Below, piece by piece: positions 3,955 to 60,951 of a stretch of 64,000 nt of DNA. Numbering within the stretch: position 1 is the first letter of the stretch; each line of letters begins with the position of its first letter. The notes beneath the pieces are model-generated. The model did not search any database. It had not been told where the DNA came from and saw only the letters and a list, made by a program, of their open reading frames with translations. This stretch comes from a virus. The DNA lies in IMG/VR virus record IMGVR_UViG_3300023174_000089, positions 1 through 64,000 of that record, one strand, 5' to 3'. The position numbers were made by a program, and so were the translations under genes.

Positions 3955-5349
3955 TTACGAGGACTTGAGTGCTAAAATATGAGCAGGTCCGCTCACCACT
4001 TTCAACCAATTGGTTGCTGTTCCTACTTGTACTGGACTGGATCTATTAACTCTATCATTTTGTCCTAATGATCCATATTCATTGATTCCCCACAACCATA
4101 GTGTGCCATCTGTTTTAATTGCTGAAGATTGGCCAATATGAGCACCAACATCACTCCAAGTTGTGTCTGAACCTATTTGTGTTGGACTGGATTTATAGGT
4201 TGAGTTATTGAGTCCTAATTGGCCATTACCATCCGCACCGGTCGAAAATATACGTCCATCTGTTCTAACCATAATTGAGTGTAGATAACCATTAGCAACT
4301 TTGCTCCATGTTGTAAGTGCTCCCACTTGTGTTGGAGATAAAATATAGTTACCACCGGCACCATTTAATCCAACAGAAGCTCGATTGGTACCCCACACCC
4401 ATAGTGTGCCATCCGTTTTAATTGCGCTAGCGTGAAATCCGATATCATTACCAAAAACTTTGTTCCAATTTGTTGAAGAACCTATTTGAACTGGACTAGA
4501 TTTATCGAGATTGGAAAATGCTCCAGCGCCATTACCTAATGTACCAAAAATTTCTCGGCCACAAGCCCATAGTGTACCATCCGTTTTAATTGCGTGCCAA
4601 AAAATACTACAATGTTGTTCACTCAATTTACTCCAATTAGTTGACGTTCCCACCTGAGTTGGACTGGAGCTAGTGATTGCATTATTGTTTCCTGAAACAC
4701 CATACGCACCATTACCCCATAACCACAAAGTACCATTGGTTTTAATAGCCATGCTATATCTTCTACCTTGGCATATCTCAGACCAATCTGTTCCTGATCC
4801 CACTTGAACTGGAGAGGATCTACTAACCATATCATTTTGTCCTAATTCACCATAACCATTATAACCCCAAGTCCATAGTGTACCATTGGTTTTGAGTCCC
4901 ATGCTGCTCCATTGATTTGCGGATATTTTACTCCATGTGGCATCCGATCCTACTTGTACTGGACTGGATCTACTAACTCTATCATTGAGTCCTAATTGGC
5001 CATGACTAGGATAATCTGAATTTGAACCCCATGCATACAAATATACTGCTGGAGAATTTGAAGTATCATTAACTGTAATTAGATTGGTTGTTGATACTAC
5101 AGTTGGTCCATTTATTGAACCTGTAGATATGGAAATACCTAATGTTTTTGTTCCATCAAGGCTTTCGTCAGAAAAAACAGTAACATTAAATGTTGCACGA
5201 TTGTTTGTAATTGTAATTGATCCAGTATTACCACCTACAATATCAGAGTTAGTAGTATTACCTGTGGTTTTCCAATATAATACAGTACCATCAGCTGTAT
5301 TAGTTGTAGTTACTGTATATTGGACTGTTTGACCTTCATTTAATGGCAT
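3955..5349 (-). CDS. RCC1-like seven-bladed beta-propeller tail protein
   Basis: This 464-residue paralogue of 702-2120 has the same N-terminal beta-sandwich (MPLNEGQTVQYT, then VGGNTGSITIT) and seven RCC1-type blades from about residue 105. One blade is degenerate (TDGRIFSTGADGNGQ lacks the W) and one has ACG in place of WG. The protein ends HILALKSS, likely the strand closing the propeller. It is 9 bases from the preceding fibre gene, so a fibre-plus-propeller pair is the repeated unit. Divergence between the two propellers lies mainly in loops, which would fit changed binding specificity; that is inference. Confidence 0.85.
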   Translation of the reverse strand: MPLNEGQTVQYTVTTTNTADGTVLYWKTTGNTTNSDIVGGNTGSITITNNRATFNVTVFSDESLDGTKTLGISISTGSINGPTVVSTTNLITVNDTSNSPAVYLYAWGSNSDYPSHGQLGLNDRVSRSSPVQVGSDATWSKISANQWSSMGLKTNGTLWTWGYNGYGELGQNDMVSRSSPVQVGSGTDWSEICQGRRYSMAIKTNGTLWLWGNGAYGVSGNNNAITSSSPTQVGTSTNWSKLSEQHCSIFWHAIKTDGTLWACGREIFGTLGNGAGAFSNLDKSSPVQIGSSTNWNKVFGNDIGFHASAIKTDGTLWVWGTNRASVGLNGAGGNYILSPTQVGALTTWSKVANGYLHSIMVRTDGRIFSTGADGNGQLGLNNSTYKSSPTQIGSDTTWSDVGAHIGQSSAIKTDGTLWLWGINEYGSLGQNDRVNRSSPVQVGTATNWLKVVSGPAHILALKSS

Positions 5350-31784: not shown

Positions 31785-39261
<7,477 letters not shown>

Positions 39262-52350: not shown

Positions 52351-53235
52351 TTAATTTTCTTCGGCCAATTTAGCAAAATAAGCCATGTCATCATCATCTG
52401 CTAAATCAGGTTCAACATCAACGGCTTTCTTAGGTGCCTTTGCTTGTTCTTTAACTTGTTCAACAGTTGTTTTTGCTGCAGGTGTTTCACCATTCAATCC
52501 AAGAACTTTGTCAAGGCGTTTCTTTAGATCATCATATGATTTAAATTCTTTGTCACCAATCAACTCTTGCAAAGAGTGTTGTGATTTCCAAATTGTTTCA
52601 AGTTCAGAATCATCTGTCGAAAGAGGAGAAGCAGATTCAAATTCAGACTTATCATAATTCTGATAGCCTTCAACTTTACGAATCTTTAGTTTAAAGTTAG
52701 CACCTTTCCATAAATCAAATGGGTTAACTGCCTGTTCATCTTCAAACTGAGGATTCATCGCCTCTGAAATCTTATCAAAGATTTTCTTGCCATAACGGAA
52801 CAAGAATACTTTGCCTTCATTCTCAGGATGTTTTGGATCAGATACAATGTAAACATTTGAAACATAGTTTAGTTTACGTTTTTGTTTGCGAACAATATCT
52901 TTATTCGCTTCGATGCCAGAATTCCATAATGTAGAATTATGTTCACAAACAGGACATTTTTCGTCCTTTGTGGTCAAACAATTATCAATCAACCAACCAC
53001 CAGGACCTTGGAATCCGTGTGAGAAGATTTTGACCCATGGTAGACTATCTTCACCATCTTTTTCAGATGCGGGAAGAAAACGGATAGTGGCCATGCCATT
53101 ACCTGCTTTGTCAACTTCTGGTCGCCAGTAATTATCAGGCTTTTCAGAACCTTCGGATGTTTGAGAGAGTGCCTCGATTGCTTTAGATAGTTTGTCGAGG
53201 TTGCCAGATTGGCGTTTAAGATTTGCAAAACTCAT
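52351..53235 (-). CDS. 32: single-stranded DNA-binding protein gp32
   Basis: 294 residues (T4 gp32: 301). The basic N-terminal motif for cooperativity is FANLKRQSGNLDKLSKA. Zinc ligands H73, C86, C94, C97 (H-x12-C-x7-C-x2-C) match the gp32 zinc site. The C-terminus is acidic (VEPDLADDDDMAYFA), the segment that recruits replication proteins. Gp32 coats ssDNA in replication, recombination and repair. A consensus sigma70 promoter at 53300-53328, plus a possible late box inside it, drives expression; a strong AAGGAAA site precedes the ATG. Confidence 0.96.
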   Translation of the reverse strand: MSFANLKRQSGNLDKLSKAIEALSQTSEGSEKPDNYWRPEVDKAGNGMATIRFLPASEKDGEDSLPWVKIFSHGFQGPGGWLIDNCLTTKDEKCPVCEHNSTLWNSGIEANKDIVRKQKRKLNYVSNVYIVSDPKHPENEGKVFLFRYGKKIFDKISEAMNPQFEDEQAVNPFDLWKGANFKLKIRKVEGYQNYDKSEFESASPLSTDDSELETIWKSQHSLQELIGDKEFKSYDDLKKRLDKVLGLNGETPAAKTTVEQVKEQAKAPKKAVDVEPDLADDDDMAYFAKLAEEN

Positions 53236-53328: not shown

Positions 53329-53813
53329 GCATACATCTTCAAAATACCAATGGTAGTTAAGGCATCCGTGTGAAGTATACCAATACCACCATCTGTTCTC
53401 CATTGATCAATGTTTTGTGAAGTGTCATCAATCAATAGATAATCTGGTCGAGCATATGTTCTTTTCAATCTTTTACCTGGTACCAGGTTAACAGGAAACT
53501 CAATGTTGTGTTTCTTTAACCAATCTATCTTCTGTTCTCTAATTTCAGCATCACGTTTCTCGGAAGATGTTGATGATAGAATTTCAGTAGGCAGGGGTAA
53601 CGACCTTAGATAGTTAATTAATGTCAAAGCATCAGGCATTAAATCCAACTTTGCAAATTCTCTATCAGCAATAAACATTGTGAAGAACTTGTCAAAAGTT
53701 TTATATGTGTCTGCGTCCCTTGGAGCAATTTTATATAATTCTTTATATCTCTTGTCAAAGTCAGCGATTACACCGTCCATGTCAAGATATATTTTTGTAA
53801 CTTTAGTATGCAT
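53325..53813 (-). CDS. HAD-family 5'-nucleotidase/phosphatase
   Basis: 162 residues. Motif I is D11-M-D13-G-V (YLDMDGVIADFD), the nucleophile and acid/base pair of HAD phosphatases. Motif II is probably EILSSTSS, and the late acidic motif is LLIDDTSQNI. Size and pattern fit the 5'(3')-deoxyribonucleotidase or polynucleotide-phosphatase-like HADs common in phages. It could dephosphorylate host nucleotides or trim nucleic-acid ends. It is inserted between gp59 and gp32, overlapping gp59 by 11 bases. Confidence 0.85.
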   Translation of the reverse strand: MHTKVTKIYLDMDGVIADFDKRYKELYKIAPRDADTYKTFDKFFTMFIADREFAKLDLMPDALTLINYLRSLPLPTEILSSTSSEKRDAEIREQKIDWLKKHNIEFPVNLVPGKRLKRTYARPDYLLIDDTSQNIDQWRTDGGIGILHTDALTTIGILKMYA

Positions 53814-54417
53814 TTTCTTTTATTTTTTCTTTCAAAATTTGTTTGAACTTATTTTTATCATAATGTAAAAATGGTTTATACTTTACACATTTCATTTTAA
53901 AATTTGGCCAAACAATGTCATCATATATTTCTTTTTCCCACATTGGAAAAAAATTCATTAAATCATCCAAAATAACCAGTGTTTCTATCGAAATGTCACC
54001 GTGTTGAGCATATTGCATCAATTTAGGAAATTCATTTTTATTTGCAATCAATAATTCATTTGGATTATCAACATTTTCTAACAGTTTAATTATATCATTT
54101 TCAAAGGTATAAGTCAAGCTTTGTTGCCGTTTTTGCCACTTCTTGTAATTATCTTCGGCTTCTGGACCAAGTATATCACCAATCCATTGGACATTATCTA
54201 CCAAAAAATTGGCAATATAATAATCTCGTAATTCTGTCAATCCAAATTTACGTGATAAACGATAGAATGAATACTTGTCTTTTCTGGTAGAGAATGTGGT
54301 TTTGCTGACATTGGTTTTACCTTTATATTTGATATAATCATAACTATCTGAGGTAAAATGCAACTTCAACGCATGAAACATTGCGAAAGCGGCAAAGCCC
54401 GAATTTTCAACTGTCAT
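53803..54417 (-). CDS. 59: helicase loader gp59
   Basis: 204 residues (T4 gp59: 217). Landmarks shared with T4 gp59: SYDYIKYKGKTNVSKTTFSTRKDKYSFYRLSRKFG, YIANFLVDNVQWIGDI, the mid-protein FENDI, and ISIETLVILDDLMNFF. Gp59 binds fork DNA and gp32 and loads the gp41 helicase. Its place next to gp33 and near gp32 is as in T4. Confidence 0.93.
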   Translation of the reverse strand: MTVENSGFAAFAMFHALKLHFTSDSYDYIKYKGKTNVSKTTFSTRKDKYSFYRLSRKFGLTELRDYYIANFLVDNVQWIGDILGPEAEDNYKKWQKRQQSLTYTFENDIIKLLENVDNPNELLIANKNEFPKLMQYAQHGDISIETLVILDDLMNFFPMWEKEIYDDIVWPNFKMKCVKYKPFLHYDKNKFKQILKEKIKENAY

Positions 54418-54418
54418 A

Positions 54419-54640
54419 CTATAATGGTAATCTAGATGTTTTCTTCAACATATTATTGTCTTGCGCTTCTTCTTTGATTTTAGCTTTGAGCGCAGGTGAG
54501 ATTAGTGTTGCTGCTACTTCAATTTCCAAACCTGTTTCTTTACAATGATGGCAGATTGCATCCATATAACCTAACCGATGTTCTACCACCAATTCTTCAA
54601 TCATCATACTAAATTTTTTTATTTCATCACGGGTGGGCAT
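54419..54640 (-). CDS. 33: late transcription co-activator gp33
   Basis: 73 residues, shorter than T4 gp33 (112). The helical core (KFSMMIEELVVEHRLGYMDAICHHCKETGLEIEVAATLISPALKAKI) follows the gp33 pattern, and the C-terminus ends in hydrophobic SRLPL, the position used for sliding-clamp contact. Gp33 binds RNA polymerase beta-flap and links it to the clamp at TATAAATA late promoters, which are present in this window. Location beside gp59 supports the call. Two Cys/His residues (CHHC) are an oddity. Confidence 0.85.
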   Translation of the reverse strand: MPTRDEIKKFSMMIEELVVEHRLGYMDAICHHCKETGLEIEVAATLISPALKAKIKEEAQDNNMLKKTSRLPL

Positions 54641-54642
54641 AT

Positions 54643-55185
54643 TTAAATTCTACTATAAAATATATGATTACCTATTTTTGTTACAACCTTATTTCTATTC
54701 CAACCAGGATTTACATAAGTTGCGTGGTAATACAACGCATTTGTTTCTGCTATCTTATCATGTAAAACTGGAACTGTCAATGCTCTTTTTGCAATTAAAT
54801 GAGATTCTTCCCATCTATACCGATCATGAATGTGTACCATTTCTTTGACCATACAAGTCCATGAGAATTGGCAAACTGTTCTTAAATTTTGATCAGTTGT
54901 TTTCTGATAAACAACCGAACATATATCTTTAGGGAAAATGCCACTATTTACACGGTTCAATGTGACCTGTGCTACGGCTAATTTACCTTCATATGTTTCG
55001 CCTGCTGATTCATAGTAAATGTTTTTAGCAAGGCATTCTACTTGTTTCTGATAATCTGCTGCAACTTGTTTTTGTGTTGCAGTTGTAACAAACTCTCTCG
55101 ATAGAGTTGGTGCTGTGTATACGATTGTCAATACTGCTAATACTACTGCTAATGTGTTAAACTTCTGTGTGTTAAATTTAAACAT
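54643..55185 (-). CDS. cell wall hydrolase, SleB/CwlJ (Hydrolase_2) family
   Basis: 180 residues. Residues 1-28 are a membrane/signal segment (TLAVVLAVLTIVYTAP). The catalytic domain has CLAKNIYYESAGETYEGKLAVAQVTLNRV, with E59 as the likely acid, then FPKDICSVVYQ, QFSWTC, and ALYYHATYVNPGW near the end. SleB-family enzymes cleave peptidoglycan glycan strands. The N-terminal hydrophobic segment suggests export to the periplasm (signal-arrest-release-like), so an endolysin role is plausible. Leader contains a short GGCAG...CTGCC stem and a GGAAGAAAG site. Confidence 0.88.
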   Translation of the reverse strand: MFKFNTQKFNTLAVVLAVLTIVYTAPTLSREFVTTATQKQVAADYQKQVECLAKNIYYESAGETYEGKLAVAQVTLNRVNSGIFPKDICSVVYQKTTDQNLRTVCQFSWTCMVKEMVHIHDRYRWEESHLIAKRALTVPVLHDKIAETNALYYHATYVNPGWNRNKVVTKIGNHIFYSRI

Positions 55186-55238: not shown

Positions 55239-55517
55239 TTACGAATTTGTTTTCGTTTTTACTTTAACTTCAGGTTGTGGAGTGGTTTGAGAAACGAATT
55301 GATTGAGAGCTTCCGCTTTCTTTACAATTTCATCTTCTGTGGGAAATGCCGGTAAGGCAGGGTAGTCAGGTGATGTTGTACCAGCAATTTTAGCTGCATC
55401 GACCTGTGTATGCCATTGTTGCTGTAGAGAATCACGTTTGGTGTGAAAATCATCAGTTAGCATATCTTTGGCCATTTTTAAGAGTTCTAGCCGTATCTCG
55501 TATGGTGTCATACTCAT
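55239..55517 (-). CDS. small conserved T4-like phage protein
   Basis: 92 residues starting MSMTPYEIRLELLKMAKDMLTDDFHTKRDSL, a sequence type found in many T4-like marine phages with no assigned role. Helical N-terminal half, Pro-rich middle (PDYPALPAFPTED), and a Lys/Thr-rich end. Excellent ribosome site AAAGGAGAAG. First coding gene after the tmRNA locus. Confidence 0.8.
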   Translation of the reverse strand: MSMTPYEIRLELLKMAKDMLTDDFHTKRDSLQQQWHTQVDAAKIAGTTSPDYPALPAFPTEDEIVKKAEALNQFVSQTTPQPEVKVKTKTNS

Positions 55518-55546
55518 TTACTTCTCCTTTTGTGTGTTGTGTGTGT

Positions 55547-55571
55547 TATCAGCGAAATGTGTGTGCTGATA
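55547..55571 (-). promoter_or_regulatory. hairpin downstream of tmRNA coding piece
   Basis: TATCAGC (55547-55553) pairs with GCTGATA (55565-55571), with an 11-base loop. No T-tract on the minus strand, so probably a processing or stabilising element at the 3' end of the tmRNA transcript. Confidence 0.5.
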
Positions 55572-55630
55572 CATTATATAGGCCAGGTGATTCTGTTGCT
55601 AAGTTCACCTGGTGAAACTCCGCTTACCGT

Positions 55631-55663
55631 TTAGGCAGCAAGTGCAAACTTATTATCGTTAGC
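55631..55663 (-). other. tmRNA tag-peptide reading frame ANDNKFALAA-stop
   Basis: GCT AAC GAT AAT AAG TTT GCA CTT GCT GCC TAA on the minus strand. The ALAA end is the usual ClpXP-type degron and AND- starts are typical of proteobacterial tags. It follows an A/T-rich stretch (AAATTAAATTAAAC) as around known resume sites. Confidence 0.9.
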
Positions 55664-55770
55664 GTTTAATTTAATTTGCTTCTTCGGCCGAGTATCTTCA
55701 ACCCTAACGTCTTTAGCTTTGACGATTCTCCATTGTTCTAATTATTGCTATGTCGAATCTAGGCACCCCC

Positions 55771-55831
55771 ATCAGAAGTATATTGCCACATTTGTGTTTG
55801 CTACCAAGAACCTGGTTCGTCAATATACTTT
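55771..55831 (-). other. tmRNA intervening segment with 10-bp closing stem
   Basis: AAGTATATTG (55776-55785) and CAATATACTT (55821-55830) are perfect inverted repeats flanking the segment between the CCA end and the 5' G of the coding piece. They extend the acceptor helix in the precursor, as in known permuted pre-tmRNAs; the loop is removed to give two pieces. Confidence 0.85.
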
Positions 55832-55884
55832 TGGTGGAGGTGGTGGGAATCGCACCCACGTCCACAACAACTTTGAAACAACTT

Positions 55885-55992
55885 CTACGAATTTCCTAGA
55901 ATTAATAATGTTGCCATAACTAAAGCAACACCACCAATCCAATAATTAAATCTATTTACTTTTTTTTGTTCTACACAATCTTTACTAGGCAT
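55885..55992 (-). CDS. tiny single-pass membrane protein
   Basis: 35 residues from ATG at 55992 (MPSKDCVEQKKVNRFNYWIG), preceded by GGAAGGA. Basic N-terminus, then a hydrophobic helix WIGGVALVMATLLILG. The start overlaps the stop of the 42-residue gene upstream (TAATG), so the two are coupled. The stop lies at the very beginning of the tmRNA acceptor piece. Function unknown; may be envelope-targeted. A longer open frame upstream to 56106 is not credible because it overlaps the other gene. Confidence 0.7.
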   Translation of the reverse strand: MPSKDCVEQKKVNRFNYWIGGVALVMATLLILGNS

Positions 55993-56120
55993 TACAGAAT
56001 CCTTCCTAACAACCAAATGATAAAAAGAAAACTTAAACCACCAGCCAATACTTTTAGAGCCCCGATTTGTCTTGCGTTCTGCTCGGGAGTGCAGAGTTTT
56101 TTCCAATATTTGTTTTGCAT
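55992..56120 (-). CDS. tiny single-pass membrane protein
   Basis: 42 residues (MQNKYWKKLCTPEQNARQIG..., then VLAGGLSFLFIIWLLGRIL). N-terminal basic/polar half, C-terminal hydrophobic helix. AGGAA ribosome site. First gene after a promoter-like region, followed by a second tiny membrane protein and the tmRNA. Unrecognised; holin-like or superinfection-related small proteins have this size, but no specific assignment is justified. Confidence 0.68.
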   Translation of the reverse strand: MQNKYWKKLCTPEQNARQIGALKVLAGGLSFLFIIWLLGRIL

Positions 56121-56167: not shown

Positions 56168-56827
56168 TTAATATTTACCACTTTTCTCATAATATGAAAT
56201 GGCGTTGACTAGACCTGTGATGTGGTCCTCGGTCTTTTGTTTGAATACGATTGGATGGTTATTCTCAACGGCCATAATGATTACTAGGTCGTGGATAGGT
56301 TCACCTATCAACTCCTCATACATCAACGCATAGGCGCTTGTTTGCCAAAAATAATCTTCAATATCTTCATGGCTTTTAACTTTTTTGGATGTTTTGAAAT
56401 CAATTACCGAAAGCACACCATCAAATTCGGCAATACAATCTACACGACCTGCCATATTCAATTGTTTTGACCAAAGTGCCTGTTCTTGGTAATGAATGTT
56501 ATTAATACGATTCAGGTGTGGTTTAATTGATAAGAACATTTCATGTGCATCAGGCATCACATTACCCAAATCTTCATTATTCAAATATCGTTCACATAGT
56601 GTATGAACATTTGTACCACGAGAAGTTGCTTTCTTGGTAATTGCATTAGCAACATCATCACCTACTTTATTACGCCATGCTTGAAAGATGTGTTTCTTTT
56701 GAGCACCAATCACTGTAGTGACTGATGGTAATTTTGTACCATCAGGCAGTTTGTAGAATCGTCTACCATCAGGAAAAGTTTCTGATTGTAAATCTTGTAA
56801 TTGTTTTGGTGGGCAGTAATTAAACAT
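56168..56827 (-). CDS. PD-(D/E)XK nuclease (RecB-like exonuclease)
   Basis: 219 residues. Motif region: ALWSKQLNMAGRVDCIAEFDGVLSVIDFKTSKK, giving D...(I)DFKxxK, the PD-(D/E)XK core, with a preceding conserved E (CERYLNNE). TSRGTNVHTLCERY is the helical motif typical of phage RecB/Cas4-like nucleases, and FWQTSAYALMYEE follows. Found widely in T4-like cyanophages. Probable role in DNA degradation, repair or recombination. It overlaps the 2OG oxygenase gene by 8 bases. Confidence 0.88.
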   Translation of the reverse strand: MFNYCPPKQLQDLQSETFPDGRRFYKLPDGTKLPSVTTVIGAQKKHIFQAWRNKVGDDVANAITKKATSRGTNVHTLCERYLNNEDLGNVMPDAHEMFLSIKPHLNRINNIHYQEQALWSKQLNMAGRVDCIAEFDGVLSVIDFKTSKKVKSHEDIEDYFWQTSAYALMYEELIGEPIHDLVIIMAVENNHPIVFKQKTEDHITGLVNAISYYEKSGKY

Positions 56828-57599
56828 TTTTTTTCGTCAAAAACTTTTCTTTTAATCTATCAAATAATGCTATATCTTCTGGTGTAAGAGTAACAGCATC
56901 TACATTTTTTCTATATTCTTTTGCTTGATTCTCAACTTGAAAGATATTCCCATAATATTTGAAATTTTTGGTGATTTGCCTTGTGTCATAGGCATCCATA
57001 ATTATATGATAACGATCTTCATCTGAATCATTTCTAATTTGGTGCCACAAATTCACCCACAGAATATAAACTGAACCATCAGCTGGCATATGTAGATTTT
57101 CACCTTGGCAGATATGCACACATTTCTTATTTGTAATTAATGGAATATGAATTCTTGCCATATAGTTATTTGTGTCTGAATCTTTATGAACCAAAGATTT
57201 TGAATGTGCCTGTAAACAAGATACCCTTGCTCGTCTAGGATAAAACCCTAATGATTCCAAATCATCCAACACTTCTTTAATATAACCAACACATCCTGCT
57301 GTTGGATTTTTATGTTCAAATCCTTCTGCGACATTCATATATTTCATGGCTTTATAATTATATTGGCCATTTGGAAAAAATACATCATTTGTTTCTTTAT
57401 CATCAGAATGATAAACTTCCCAACCATCTCGCCAATCACCAGTTCTAGACAATAATGTCCAACCACCAAAGCCATGGTATTCTAGTGTTTCAAATTCTTC
57501 ACCTTGAATCTGTTGTTTACCAAGAGTGAATACATTATTCTCAACCTCTTTTCTCAATCGGTCGATATCAACTTTATAATCCAACTTTTCATACCACAT
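56820..57599 (-). CDS. 2OG-Fe(II) oxygenase, aspartyl/asparaginyl beta-hydroxylase-like
   Basis: 259 residues from ATG at 57599, which overlaps the upstream stop (TAATG) and has a GGAAAC site; a longer frame to 57632 is less likely. The cupin core is RVSCLQAHSKSLVHKDSDTNNYMARIHIPLITN, with H138 and D140 as HxD, and VNLWHQIRNDSDEDRYHIIMDAYD, with H186 and R196 as distal His and 2-oxoglutarate Arg. RIHIPL is typical of the Asp/Arg hydroxylase branch. Substrate unknown; protein hydroxylation is the family norm. It is part of the operon carrying the radical SAM gene. Confidence 0.85.
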   Translation of the reverse strand: MWYEKLDYKVDIDRLRKEVENNVFTLGKQQIQGEEFETLEYHGFGGWTLLSRTGDWRDGWEVYHSDDKETNDVFFPNGQYNYKAMKYMNVAEGFEHKNPTAGCVGYIKEVLDDLESLGFYPRRARVSCLQAHSKSLVHKDSDTNNYMARIHIPLITNKKCVHICQGENLHMPADGSVYILWVNLWHQIRNDSDEDRYHIIMDAYDTRQITKNFKYYGNIFQVENQAKEYRKNVDAVTLTPEDIALFDRLKEKFLTKKNV

Positions 57600-58162
57600 T
57601 ATAAGTTTCCTGTTTCTTTTAAAATTTGACACACATCTTGATAATAATACTGTGTACCTAGAGTAATGGCAAGCCTTTCACTCAAAACATTATTTGGTTT
57701 TACTGCGTGTGGTCGTGTTACATCAAGTAACCACACTTCATTATCTTTTGCGATGAATGATTCTGTTTTTTCCAAATCGTCCTCTTGGTAGATAAATCCA
57801 TTGGTTTGATTATCTATCTGATAGGTATTTGGTTGTTCATCTTTAAACTTATAAAACTGTGTTAAGCAATTTTCAGTTTTTATATAGAAGTTAATTGTTG
57901 AATTTATACCACTATCGGTGTGAGGAGGTATTGAATGGTTCACTTTCATTAAAGACATGAAGAAGTCTTTACGACATCTTTCCGGCAAAACAGAATATAT
58001 TTGTGGATGTAATAATGAATTCAAGTTTAAATATTGTATGCCTTTAAATTGGCCATCAATATTTACACCGTAAGATATTTGAACATCAAGTGGTTCATAA
58101 CCAGGAACAATGAAATTGTTTTTTAATTTAACAAAACTACTTCTTTGATTTCCATTCTTCAT
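57599..58162 (-). CDS. 2OG-Fe(II) oxygenase-like protein
   Basis: 187 residues. MKVNHSIPPHTDSGINSTINFYI gives H81-x-D83; the distal site is TRPHAVKPNNVLSERLAITLG with H152 and R163. The HxD...H...R pattern fits the double-stranded beta-helix of 2OG-Fe(II) oxygenases. It overlaps the next gene by one base (TAATG) and the upstream EF-hand gene by 26 bases. Substrate unknown. Such enzymes next to virion or host-modifying genes are frequent in cyanophages. Confidence 0.78.
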   Translation of the reverse strand: MKNGNQRSSFVKLKNNFIVPGYEPLDVQISYGVNIDGQFKGIQYLNLNSLLHPQIYSVLPERCRKDFFMSLMKVNHSIPPHTDSGINSTINFYIKTENCLTQFYKFKDEQPNTYQIDNQTNGFIYQEDDLEKTESFIAKDNEVWLLDVTRPHAVKPNNVLSERLAITLGTQYYYQDVCQILKETGNL

Positions 58163-58499
58163 ATTGTTTCACGATTTGACATTCATAATCCCAATTAATA
58201 CCTTCATGTGGATTATCCTTAGCGGCTTGCCAAGGTTTACCCAAAATATGTTCGAGAATAGGAATGCCAGGATGTAATATTTTTTCTAATACATCAGCAT
58301 AATCAGTAAACATTTGAAACAACCGCTCTTTATCGGGTTGTTGTAGATTTAAAATGTCGCTGTTCAATTGAGTATCGAAATATTTTACGATATGTTTACG
58401 ATATAACTCAATTTCTTCTTCTGTAACAATACCATCACGGTTGATGTCGGCGTCTGCTACACCATCGTTATTTAAATCAATATCTTTAATATCAGACAT
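58137..58499 (-). CDS. EF-hand-containing small protein
   Basis: 120 residues. The N-terminus MSDIKDIDLNNDGVADADINRDGIVTEEEIELY has two overlapping Ca-binding loops (DLNNDGVADAD and DINRDGIVTEEE), EF-hand or dockerin-like. The remainder is helical (FQMFTDYADVLEKILHPGIPILEHILGKPW) and ends EEWKSKK. It overlaps the Cys-rich gene by 8 bases. Calcium-binding virion or assembly proteins of this size occur in T4-like marine phages; role unknown. Confidence 0.8.
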   Translation of the reverse strand: MSDIKDIDLNNDGVADADINRDGIVTEEEIELYRKHIVKYFDTQLNSDILNLQQPDKERLFQMFTDYADVLEKILHPGIPILEHILGKPWQAAKDNPHEGINWDYECQIVKQYEEWKSKK

Positions 58500-59475
58500 T
58501 TTCTAATTTCCCCTGAAACAGTTTTTCTTTAAATTCTATTAATTTACTTAGATATAGAGCTGTGTAATAAGTAAAAAATACAAGAGCCCAAATTGTGTAT
58601 ACGGCCAAGACTTGTTGTTTTCTATTTGATTTTGGTTTTGGTGGTATATAACTGACCACTCTACAGATAACTGTACCAATTTTCATAATGATACGACCCA
58701 TGGTGTTATCTTGTTTCAAAACACCCATCTTATAAGCCATATGTTCAGACCAAGGTGTTCCAATCTTAACAGCCATTTCAGTTGCAACAATCTTTTGTTC
58801 AATTTTACGGCGTGATTCTTTTTTGATCCAGAACATAAAATCTGGACCTTTAGCATTCATCCATGATGTAACGATACGAGCCCAACGGATATAACCACGA
58901 TAAACCCTCTTATCTGTTTTACGTAACATCTGGCCATATGCCTGATCAGCTGCCCATATTGTAGAACTCATTAGGCCTTTATCATACAAATCAGCACAAA
59001 CGATCTTAGAACAGTTACATGCACAGTTACAATTAAATGTTGCTGAAGCTGCGGCGCCACAATTGTAGCCTACAGTTGCATTACAGTTACAATTATATCC
59101 AGAAGAACAGTTACAATTGGCTTGAAGATACGATTGTGTATCACAGTTTGTGCAATTTATACCAGAACAATTTGTGCACTGAGATTCAAAGGCACCAAAA
59201 GGTAAACACTGCTGACATTGAATGTTTCCACAGTTACAGTTACAGTTTGTGCAATTTGTAGGAGGACAATTGGTATTTGAACAGTTACCATTATCACAGT
59301 TTCCGTCCATATTTCTCTGATAGTATGCTTTATCTTTAAAAGCATCCATGTTTGGACTGGCTGGAGGATTCTTTAAATAACCATTTAAAAACTGCAAAGA
59401 TGCAGAATATGTTGCACCTAAACCTAGTTCGGTCGTTACATCAGATGTCGATATTTGGCCACTTGGTGTTGTCAT
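58492..59475 (-). CDS. Cys/Asn-rich protein with virion-type N-terminus and C-terminal membrane segment
   Basis: 327 residues. The first about 55 resemble phage tail/virion N-termini (MTTPSGQISTSDVTTELG ... AFKDKAYYQRN). Residues 58-160 contain 23 cysteines, most preceded by Asn (GNCSNTNC, TNCNCNCGN, YNCNCN, FNCNCACNC). Residues 165-290 are basic and helical. A hydrophobic segment near the end (VLAVYTIWALVFFTYYTALYL) could span a membrane. It has its own late promoter-like box and sits 30 bases downstream of a radical SAM/SPASM gene, which makes it the obvious candidate substrate. Metal binding through NC repeats is the alternative. Confidence 0.85.
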   Translation of the reverse strand: MTTPSGQISTSDVTTELGLGATYSASLQFLNGYLKNPPASPNMDAFKDKAYYQRNMDGNCDNGNCSNTNCPPTNCTNCNCNCGNIQCQQCLPFGAFESQCTNCSGINCTNCDTQSYLQANCNCSSGYNCNCNATVGYNCGAAASATFNCNCACNCSKIVCADLYDKGLMSSTIWAADQAYGQMLRKTDKRVYRGYIRWARIVTSWMNAKGPDFMFWIKKESRRKIEQKIVATEMAVKIGTPWSEHMAYKMGVLKQDNTMGRIIMKIGTVICRVVSYIPPKPKSNRKQQVLAVYTIWALVFFTYYTALYLSKLIEFKEKLFQGKLENV

Positions 59476-59502
59476 TTTACTGTCCGTTACAATTTATTGT
59501 AG

Positions 59503-59510
59503 TATTTATG
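59503..59510 (-). promoter_or_regulatory. late promoter-like CATAAATA
   Basis: CATAAATA (7/8) on the minus strand overlaps the stop codon of the radical SAM gene. It lies 27 bases before the ATG of the Cys-rich gene, with GGACAG as ribosome site. Confidence 0.5.
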
Positions 59511-60951
59511 TTGTTTCCAACCGTGATTTTCCATATACTTCAATACCTTCTACCTGACCTATTTTTTCACTTACGACCTTGATGGGTATAACCTTTTTCT
59601 TTGGTTCCTCTTTGTGTTCATAGATTGTACCAAAAATATCTTGGCGTTCTAGGGGTAGACCTTCCGCCTTAATTAAAGTTGGAATGTAACCACCAGTAAT
59701 TTTCTCAATGGCCAAGGCAAACAATGGTACATTATCTGAATATGAGTTTGCACAAGATATATCCCAAAACTTTTCATCTAGGAACATACAAGCACCTTTA
59801 CATAGGTGTAAAACTGGACAACCGCTACATTCTTTACGATTACTCCAATGTGTAGAACTTTTGATTCGAACATTATCAAAATCATCTAGTGTTCCACTAT
59901 GGTGACTTTCACCATTTTTACCCATTTCTAAAGAACTTACGTTTTGACAGGTCATAACATTACCACGCAGGTCAACAGCAAGGGTGTGTTCATCATCCAT
60001 GCCACACTTTTGACCTAAGAATTTAGAATTTGTGTGTGTTAATACTGAACCAATAAACCCATCGATTTTGGCCAACTGGCCAAAGAATCCTATTTTACCT
60101 TGTGTGGTGAATATATCAGCAAATGCTGTTCTACGATATTCAAAGTGTTCTTGTTTTGTTTGTAATGAATTAACGATACCATCTTCATCATAAGCGTCAA
60201 CAATACCACCTTCACCCAATACAACATTTGGATCACCGGTTAGTTTAACAAACCATTCATAAATTTCTTTACGTGATTTGTTTTTCGAATTCATCATTGG
60301 GTTGAAACTAAATGATTTACCCAATCTACTCATCATACGGTGAAATCCAAGAATTCTTTTCTTGGCTTCTGGATCATCAAATGGATCTGGCCCACGAACT
60401 GATTGTCCTGGTCCATCATGTGATATTGATACGGAGAAATCCATCATCATCAACCAATCAATGATATCATCAGTTAGAATTGACCCGTTGGTAATGATAG
60501 AGAATTGTGGTTTTCTTTTCCAATCAGAAAACTTTTCTGCAATAGTTTCGGCCAAAGGTTTTAATGTTTTCCAATATACAAGTGGTTCACCACCCCAAAA
60601 CTCAACTCTTAAGCCAGACTGTTCATCAAATTCTAGTTTGTTAAATTTTTCCATAAAAGAATCGATATCTTTTTTGGATGTTTCTGGCATTCTTTCAACA
60701 AATTTCTGTGAACAATAATCGCAGGAGTAGTTACAACTCAAACCTAATTGAATTTTAATATGTTTAACTAATCTAGATTTTTTGAGTGGATTATTCTTGT
60801 CGAATGGGACATAAGGTTTTAAACCATGTGGTTGAATATTATTGTATTGTAATATGTTTCCATTTTCATCAGACAATATGTTGGTCATATTATCATAATA
60901 AAAAATCCTCTTATCGTCTTTTGACTTCTCGGTGTGTATTTCAAATAACAT
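59506..60951 (-). CDS. radical SAM / SPASM peptide maturase
   Basis: 481 residues. Cluster motif C73-NYS-C77-DY-C80 (CxxxCxxC). GGEP at 120-123, ITNGSIL at 153-159 and SISHDGPG at 176-182 are the SAM-binding and core motifs of anSME/peptide-maturase enzymes. The C-terminal half has a full SPASM set: C316, G330-x4-C335, then C375-x2-C378-x5-C384-x3-C388, and C400. These proteins hold three Fe-S clusters and modify peptides by radical chemistry (thioether links, formylglycine and related). The adjacent Cys-rich protein is the likely substrate. The start overlaps the preceding stop (TAATG). Confidence 0.93.
   Translation of the reverse strand: MLFEIHTEKSKDDKRIFYYDNMTNILSDENGNILQYNNIQPHGLKPYVPFDKNNPLKKSRLVKHIKIQLGLSCNYSCDYCSQKFVERMPETSKKDIDSFMEKFNKLEFDEQSGLRVEFWGGEPLVYWKTLKPLAETIAEKFSDWKRKPQFSIITNGSILTDDIIDWLMMMDFSVSISHDGPGQSVRGPDPFDDPEAKKRILGFHRMMSRLGKSFSFNPMMNSKNKSRKEIYEWFVKLTGDPNVVLGEGGIVDAYDEDGIVNSLQTKQEHFEYRRTAFADIFTTQGKIGFFGQLAKIDGFIGSVLTHTNSKFLGQKCGMDDEHTLAVDLRGNVMTCQNVSSLEMGKNGESHHSGTLDDFDNVRIKSSTHWSNRKECSGCPVLHLCKGACMFLDEKFWDISCANSYSDNVPLFALAIEKITGGYIPTLIKAEGLPLERQDIFGTIYEHKEEPKKKVIPIKVVSEKIGQVEGIEVYGKSRLETT

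Follow-up and report, generated by a model that had tools for sequence, protein, structure and literature searches.

A circularly permuted tmRNA gene with a coding tag maintained at one locus in a group of T4-like phages

Introduction

The interval between a PD-(D/E)XK nuclease gene and the gp33-gp59-gp32 genes of a T4-like phage raises the question of whether such a phage carries a working ribosome-rescue RNA of its own and, if so, how it is kept and used. The window analysed here is the whole stretch of 64,000 nucleotides at positions 1 to 64,000 of the virus record IMGVR_UViG_3300023174_000089, which has 114,873 bases and is probably a fragment. The presence of gp32, gp33, gp59, tail tube and other genes agreed with its assignment to a T4-like phage. 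tmRNA is cut by RNase P and tRNA-processing enzymes, charged by alanyl-tRNA synthetase (AlaRS) through the G3.U70 pair, enters stalled ribosomes with the aid of SmpB and tags their products. A preliminary description of the window, made from its letters, had proposed a permuted two-piece tmRNA at 55575-55895, considered it unusual for a lytic T4-like phage and regarded its architecture as a mark of the source lineage. The phage-borne permuted tmRNA is a kind already known from two marine phages, having been reported for Melnitz and Mosig (PMC9004378). In that study, the two-piece form accounted for 53 of 133 distinct phage tmRNAs, mostly aquatic, and was present in 17 of 47 contigs of the Melnitz cluster (PMC9004378).

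Results

The locus contains a complete permuted tmRNA gene

The minus strand between 55540 and 55924 was identified by ARAGORN as a complete circularly permuted tmRNA gene with the tag ANDNKFALAA, and the earlier outline is a fair match to it. The Rfam model RF04321 (tmRNA_permuted) matched over its full length (1-213) with 112.4 bits (E 4.1e-21, cut-off 47), far beyond chance. The elements follow in transcription as 3' tRNA half, spacer, 5' tRNA half, tag frame and 3' hairpin (Table 1). The 3' half contains the T-arm GTGGG-TGCGATT-CCCAC (stem GTGGG/CCCAC) and the acceptor strand CACCTCC (55842-55836), followed by the encoded ACCA (55835-55832). The spacer contains a 10-bp precursor helix, AAGTATATTG (55830-55821) with CAATATACTT (55785-55776), which extends the acceptor stem, and the tag frame reads GCT-AAC-GAT-AAT-AAG-TTT-GCA-CTT-GCT-GCC-TAA (55663-55631). 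Every element listed in the preliminary description (minus-strand T-arm, CACCTCC, ACCA, GGGGGTG, TTCGAC and ANDNKFALAA-stop) was found in the sequence, and the permuted two-piece form is backed by ARAGORN, Rfam and covariation across relatives.

Table 1. Positions of the permuted tmRNA gene, its parts and the neighbouring genes in the window.
Feature	Position	Strand	Evidence or remark
PD-(D/E)XK nuclease / exonuclease (phrog_298), upstream flank	56168-56827	-	also flanks ssrA in both Mosig and Melnitz
Small upstream ORF, 73 aa, no family	55885-56106	-	stop codon overlaps tmRNA 5' end
Whole permuted tmRNA gene	55540-55924	-	ARAGORN; covariance-model core 55631-55892
3' tRNA half (acceptor piece)	55832-55870	-	T-arm, acceptor strand and encoded ACCA
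Intervening spacer, 61 nt, expected to be removed	55771-55831	-	sequence; covarying helices 7 and 8; minimum-energy fold
5' tRNA half	55745-55770	-	acceptor strand GGGGGTG 55770-55764; TTCGAC motif
Tag reading frame ANDNKFALAA-stop, resume codon GCT	55631-55663	-	ARAGORN; codon comparison, 70 sequences
3' hairpin CCAGGTGA/TCACCTGG enclosing TTAGCAACAGAA motif	55583-55612	-	helix 10, two-sided change at 8/8 pairs
92-aa protein just downstream, no known family	55239-55517	-	found in most close relatives
Cell wall hydrolase (PF07486), lysis-type	54643-55185	-	
gp33-like late-transcription coactivator (PF16805)	54419-54640	-	
gp59-like helicase loader	53803-54417	-	
gp32-like single-stranded DNA-binding protein	52351-53235	-	

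The slot of the tmRNA is thus between the PD-(D/E)XK nuclease gene and the gp33-gp59-gp32 genes. Homologues of the 73-aa upstream ORF (61-66%) occurred in relatives L167, L199, L209, L210 and L213. A sigma-70-like scan for promoters found no excess over shuffled sequences. In relatives L005, L024, L028 and L031, a second copy of the initial tmRNA segment, GTAATTCGTAGAAGTTGTTT, lies some 160 bases further upstream, beyond a small inserted ORF, and resembles a duplication made by insertion. In two relatives, the gp32 gene has an abiF RNA (RF03085) downstream of it (L209:6673-6710 and L213:10087-10124).

Elsewhere in the window, an Asp/Asn beta-hydroxylase-like protein (PF05118; 56820-57632), a Cys/Asn-rich repeat protein of no family (58492-59475) and, beside the latter, a radical-SAM protein (PF04055; 59506-60951) are encoded with other small ORFs between them, and the region 56820-60951 is possibly a phage cassette modifying a Cys/Asn-rich peptide. 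Two very long collagen-like proteins with G-A-T-G-type repeats (1138 and 1352 aa) are encoded at 31785-39261. An RCC1-like repeat protein (702-2120; RCC1 matches at E 1e-42) and a second one, alike by eye (3955-5349), lie among the tail genes.

Paired positions of the RNA covary among relatives

Relatives were gathered from IMG/VR by scans for a tmRNA pattern and for the two neighbouring proteins, and 34 representatives were compared over 48 pairs of the expected structure. Judging from the IMG sample numbers, their sources are presumably freshwater. Pairing was found in 92.6% of the cells, as compared with 72.0% in shuffled alignments and 40-51% when the structure was slid, a comparison biased towards the structure, which derives from the window and from the Rfam model. 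Two-sided changes, which are independent of that bias, were found at 42 of the 48 pairs, and the covariation score was 0.525 versus 0.177. The T-stem pairs were formed in 100% of the 34 sequences. The 7-bp acceptor stem, whose strands lie on separate pieces, was likewise paired in 34/34, as the preliminary description had proposed for the window, with two-sided change at 3 of its 7 pairs. It occurred in seven versions (GGGGGTG/CACCTCC, GGGCCGG/CCGGTCC, GGGGATG/CATCTCC, GGGCCAG/CTGGTCC, GGGGCTG/CAGCTCC, GGGCCTG/CAGGTCC and GGGGGCG/CGCCTCC), and the alanine identity pair G3.U70 was kept in 34/34. Every pair of the spacer helices 7 and 8 covaried, which fits, as a hint, a folded precursor that is cut into two pieces. 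Helix 9 was just 63% paired, is probably misaligned and was given no weight. Because the paired positions covary in relatives, these comparisons indicate that the tmRNA is maintained under selection as an RNA.

The tag peptide is conserved while its codons change

Of the 70 distinct permuted sequences whose tags were compared, 65 belong to this phage group and the others to different phages. The last two residues were Ala-Ala in 70/70, with all four alanine codons occurring at each place, and leucine preceded them in 64/70, encoded by CTT, TTA, CTA or TTG. A stop codon (TAA, TGA or TAG) was always present after the tag. Because the peptide is kept while its codons change, the comparison argues that the tag is under selection as a translated peptide and that the frame and its stop are under clear selection as a coding tag. 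An artefact was rejected on the covariation and codon evidence together. Within the group the tags were found to be diverse, including ANDKYALAA, ANDEKFALAA, ANDSAYRLAA, ANESVYKIAA, ANDESYRIAA, ANDSRFLMAA, ANEDAFLMAA and others. Most phage tags end in ALAA; the odd endings RLAA, KIAA, RIAA and LMAA belong to relatives, and the window's own tag has no such ending.

The tmRNA is nearly constant at this locus in the phage group

The PD-(D/E)XK nuclease on one side and gp33 or gp59 on the other were present at 134 loci. This sample, which includes the window, Mosig and Melnitz, is non-random, as proteins of the phage itself served to find the flanks and some loci entered via the tmRNA. ARAGORN placed a permuted tmRNA between the flanks at 116 of these loci, with identical gene order and strand throughout, and 12 of the 18 apparent absences held a tmRNA by Rfam, giving 128/134. 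When identical flanks were merged, 86 distinct pairs remained, the same three phages included, and 80 of them contained the tmRNA. The gene was absent from five distinct flank pairs and from the marine virus AG-345-P14 among these 86; one relative without the gene, L199, has a 45-nt remnant left. Because these five relatives and AG-345-P14 do without it, the tmRNA is not indispensable.

By position the window fits the ssrA locus of the two marine phages. Pelagibacter phage Mosig EXVC030M (MT647606), a T4-like phage (Kyanoviridae), likewise has a permuted two-piece ssrA in the same slot, with a PD-(D/E)XK nuclease preceding it and gp33 and gp59 following. Methylophilales phage Melnitz EXVC044M (MZ577097) has the same form and slot, in the order PDDEXK, two small ORFs, ssrA, gp33 and gp59. 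Thus, the view that such a gene is unusual in a T4-like phage did not hold, given these precedents at the same locus and its presence in most flank pairs. The loci differ in detail. Compared with Mosig, the window has the genes of the 92-aa protein and the hydrolase between tmRNA and gp33, and the best clade model for Mosig ssrA is the alpha model (67.6 bits, tag GEDNFALAA), whereas it is the beta model for the window. Melnitz ssrA is also alpha-type (106.7 bits), with a longer tag, ANDNYVPVDYALAA. A glutamine riboswitch, reported for both phages, adjoins ssrA in Melnitz and was detected there with the same library as used on the window; none was found at threshold in the window or the rest of the record. 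Mosig has a manA RNA motif (RF01745; L041:9089-9296) downstream of its ssrA locus, before a rubrerythrin gene.

The RNA leans towards the betaproteobacterial type

In a permissive search, the betaproteobacterial model RF01850 was the best clade model for the window with 76.8 bits, below its cut-off of 84, and several close relatives scored above this cut-off (L008 98.2, L009 97.4, L006 94.7 and L034 85.2). The alphaproteobacterial model RF01849 passed its cut-off of 50 with 58.0 bits, yet scored lower than the beta model, and the window thus falls outside the alphaproteobacterial clade, taken as cut-off passed and best model together. Betaproteobacterial permuted tmRNAs (RF01850; e.g. L242, L243 and L246-L257) have the same permuted order and tags like the phage ones (ANDESYALAA, ANDENFALAA, ANDDKFALAA and ANDERFALAA), although most sampled beta hosts score 142-331 bits with RF01850 as against 76.8 for the window. 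These features lean towards a window tmRNA most like the betaproteobacterial type. A tree of permuted tmRNAs over 255 columns set the phage sequences apart from host sequences with weak support (78-85), and tree tests rejected no alternative origin (p 0.145-0.514), whether a single ancient capture or separate captures by Mosig/Melnitz and by this group. Thus, of the proposal that the architecture marks the source lineage, the preference for beta over alpha models stands, and the tree leaves the origin undecided.

A near-relative DNA search of phage records gave nothing useful. The window tag, searched as a degenerate pattern, had no match in 84,980 species genomes, and the sole match of the acceptor and T-arm pattern was a standard-form tmRNA in one MAG. 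Neither pattern thus pointed to a host. As a side observation, L049 and L078 (genomes G026 and G434) have a permuted tmRNA with the tag ANDDNFEVALAA; they are the only two with one among 85 genomes of a proteobacterial order that was reached through a gammaproteobacterial MAG, so that its occurrence there is apparently scattered.

Discussion

The permuted tmRNA is near-fixed at one locus in a wider T4-like phage group and most resembles the betaproteobacterial type, with widely varied tags and no phage SmpB found, and this is what is new here. On the sequence evidence, it is very probably a functional phage ssrA gene whose RNA would be processed, charged with alanine and used with host SmpB for rescuing stalled ribosomes and tagging their products. 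The gene would be read as a single transcript in which the acceptor halves and the spacer helix pair on folding. Host RNase P and 3' tRNA-processing enzymes would then cut it in two, leaving the acceptor part base-paired to the coding part, and host AlaRS would charge it through G3.U70. With host SmpB and EF-Tu as partners, it would free ribosomes that stall on broken mRNA in the infected cell, and ANDNKFALAA added to the stalled product would direct degradation by host proteases. SmpB was found neither in this record nor in 10 relatives of up to 177 kb, Mosig and Melnitz, by a search positive in 10 of 14 control genomes; the phage tmRNA would therefore have to use the SmpB of the host.

Most likely, the phage tmRNA supplements or replaces host ssrA during infection through host SmpB and AlaRS. 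The benefit would be that ribosomes stay free while host mRNA is destroyed and host ssrA is perhaps no longer made; a phage copy would keep them available if the host's own ssrA were lost or fell short. A study of T4 infection found that host SsrA remains abundant during the degradation of host mRNA, and its authors suggest that it keeps ribosomes available (PMC9697503), so tmRNA activity is compatible with lytic growth.

The diversity of the tags could also mean that the phage RNA competes with host tmRNA and that its tag alters recognition by host ClpXP/ClpAP or an adaptor, so that a different set of proteins is degraded. The endings RLAA, KIAA, RIAA and LMAA, and the absence of the window tag from the species genomes with the pattern used, are in favour of this, as are the sampled beta hosts, which end in ALAA, AIAA or AMAA, one odd reading apart. 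None of 268 genomes from the beta family that has permuted tmRNA showed a Y/F-R-L-A-A ending, a count that had no ALAA-ending positive control. On the other side, some phage tags are the same as sampled host tags (ANDESYALAA and ANDERFALAA), ALAA is the commonest phage ending, and drift among LAA, IAA and MAA occurs in bacteria too, and we consider such phage-specific tagging unlikely. Equally doubtful is its stronger form, in which the tmRNA would be a core takeover gene with a tag diverged from the host's, rescue being kept and proteolysis of tagged products retuned for the phage.

An RNA that binds SmpB or ribosomes and inhibits host trans-translation has a precedent in mycobacteriophage DS6A, whose tmRNA is phage-borne too and is reported to inhibit the resident one (PMC11915505). 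By its description the DS6A RNA is set apart, as it has no tag frame, whereas here the frame and stop are under clear selection and all charging elements are intact, which makes a decoy very improbable. Least probable is that the gene is a passenger, picked up recently from a host genome through imprecise excision or recombination and unused by the phage. tmRNA genes are common integration sites and prophages contain fragments of them (PMC9004378), but at least 65 distinct group members maintain the structure and the tag at a fixed syntenic position, and no near-identical host copy was found. A recent unused capture was thus excluded on covariation, codon evidence and fixed synteny.

Supplementing or replacing host ssrA remains the preferred reading of the gene. 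Phage tmRNAs have so far been treated as occasional oddities. The covariation, the codon evidence, the shared locus and the many natural tags, seen in at least 65 distinct sequences, together indicate that one phage group maintains ribosome rescue as part of its gene set. The same sequences form a ready comparison for whether phages steer proteolysis by tagging during infection.
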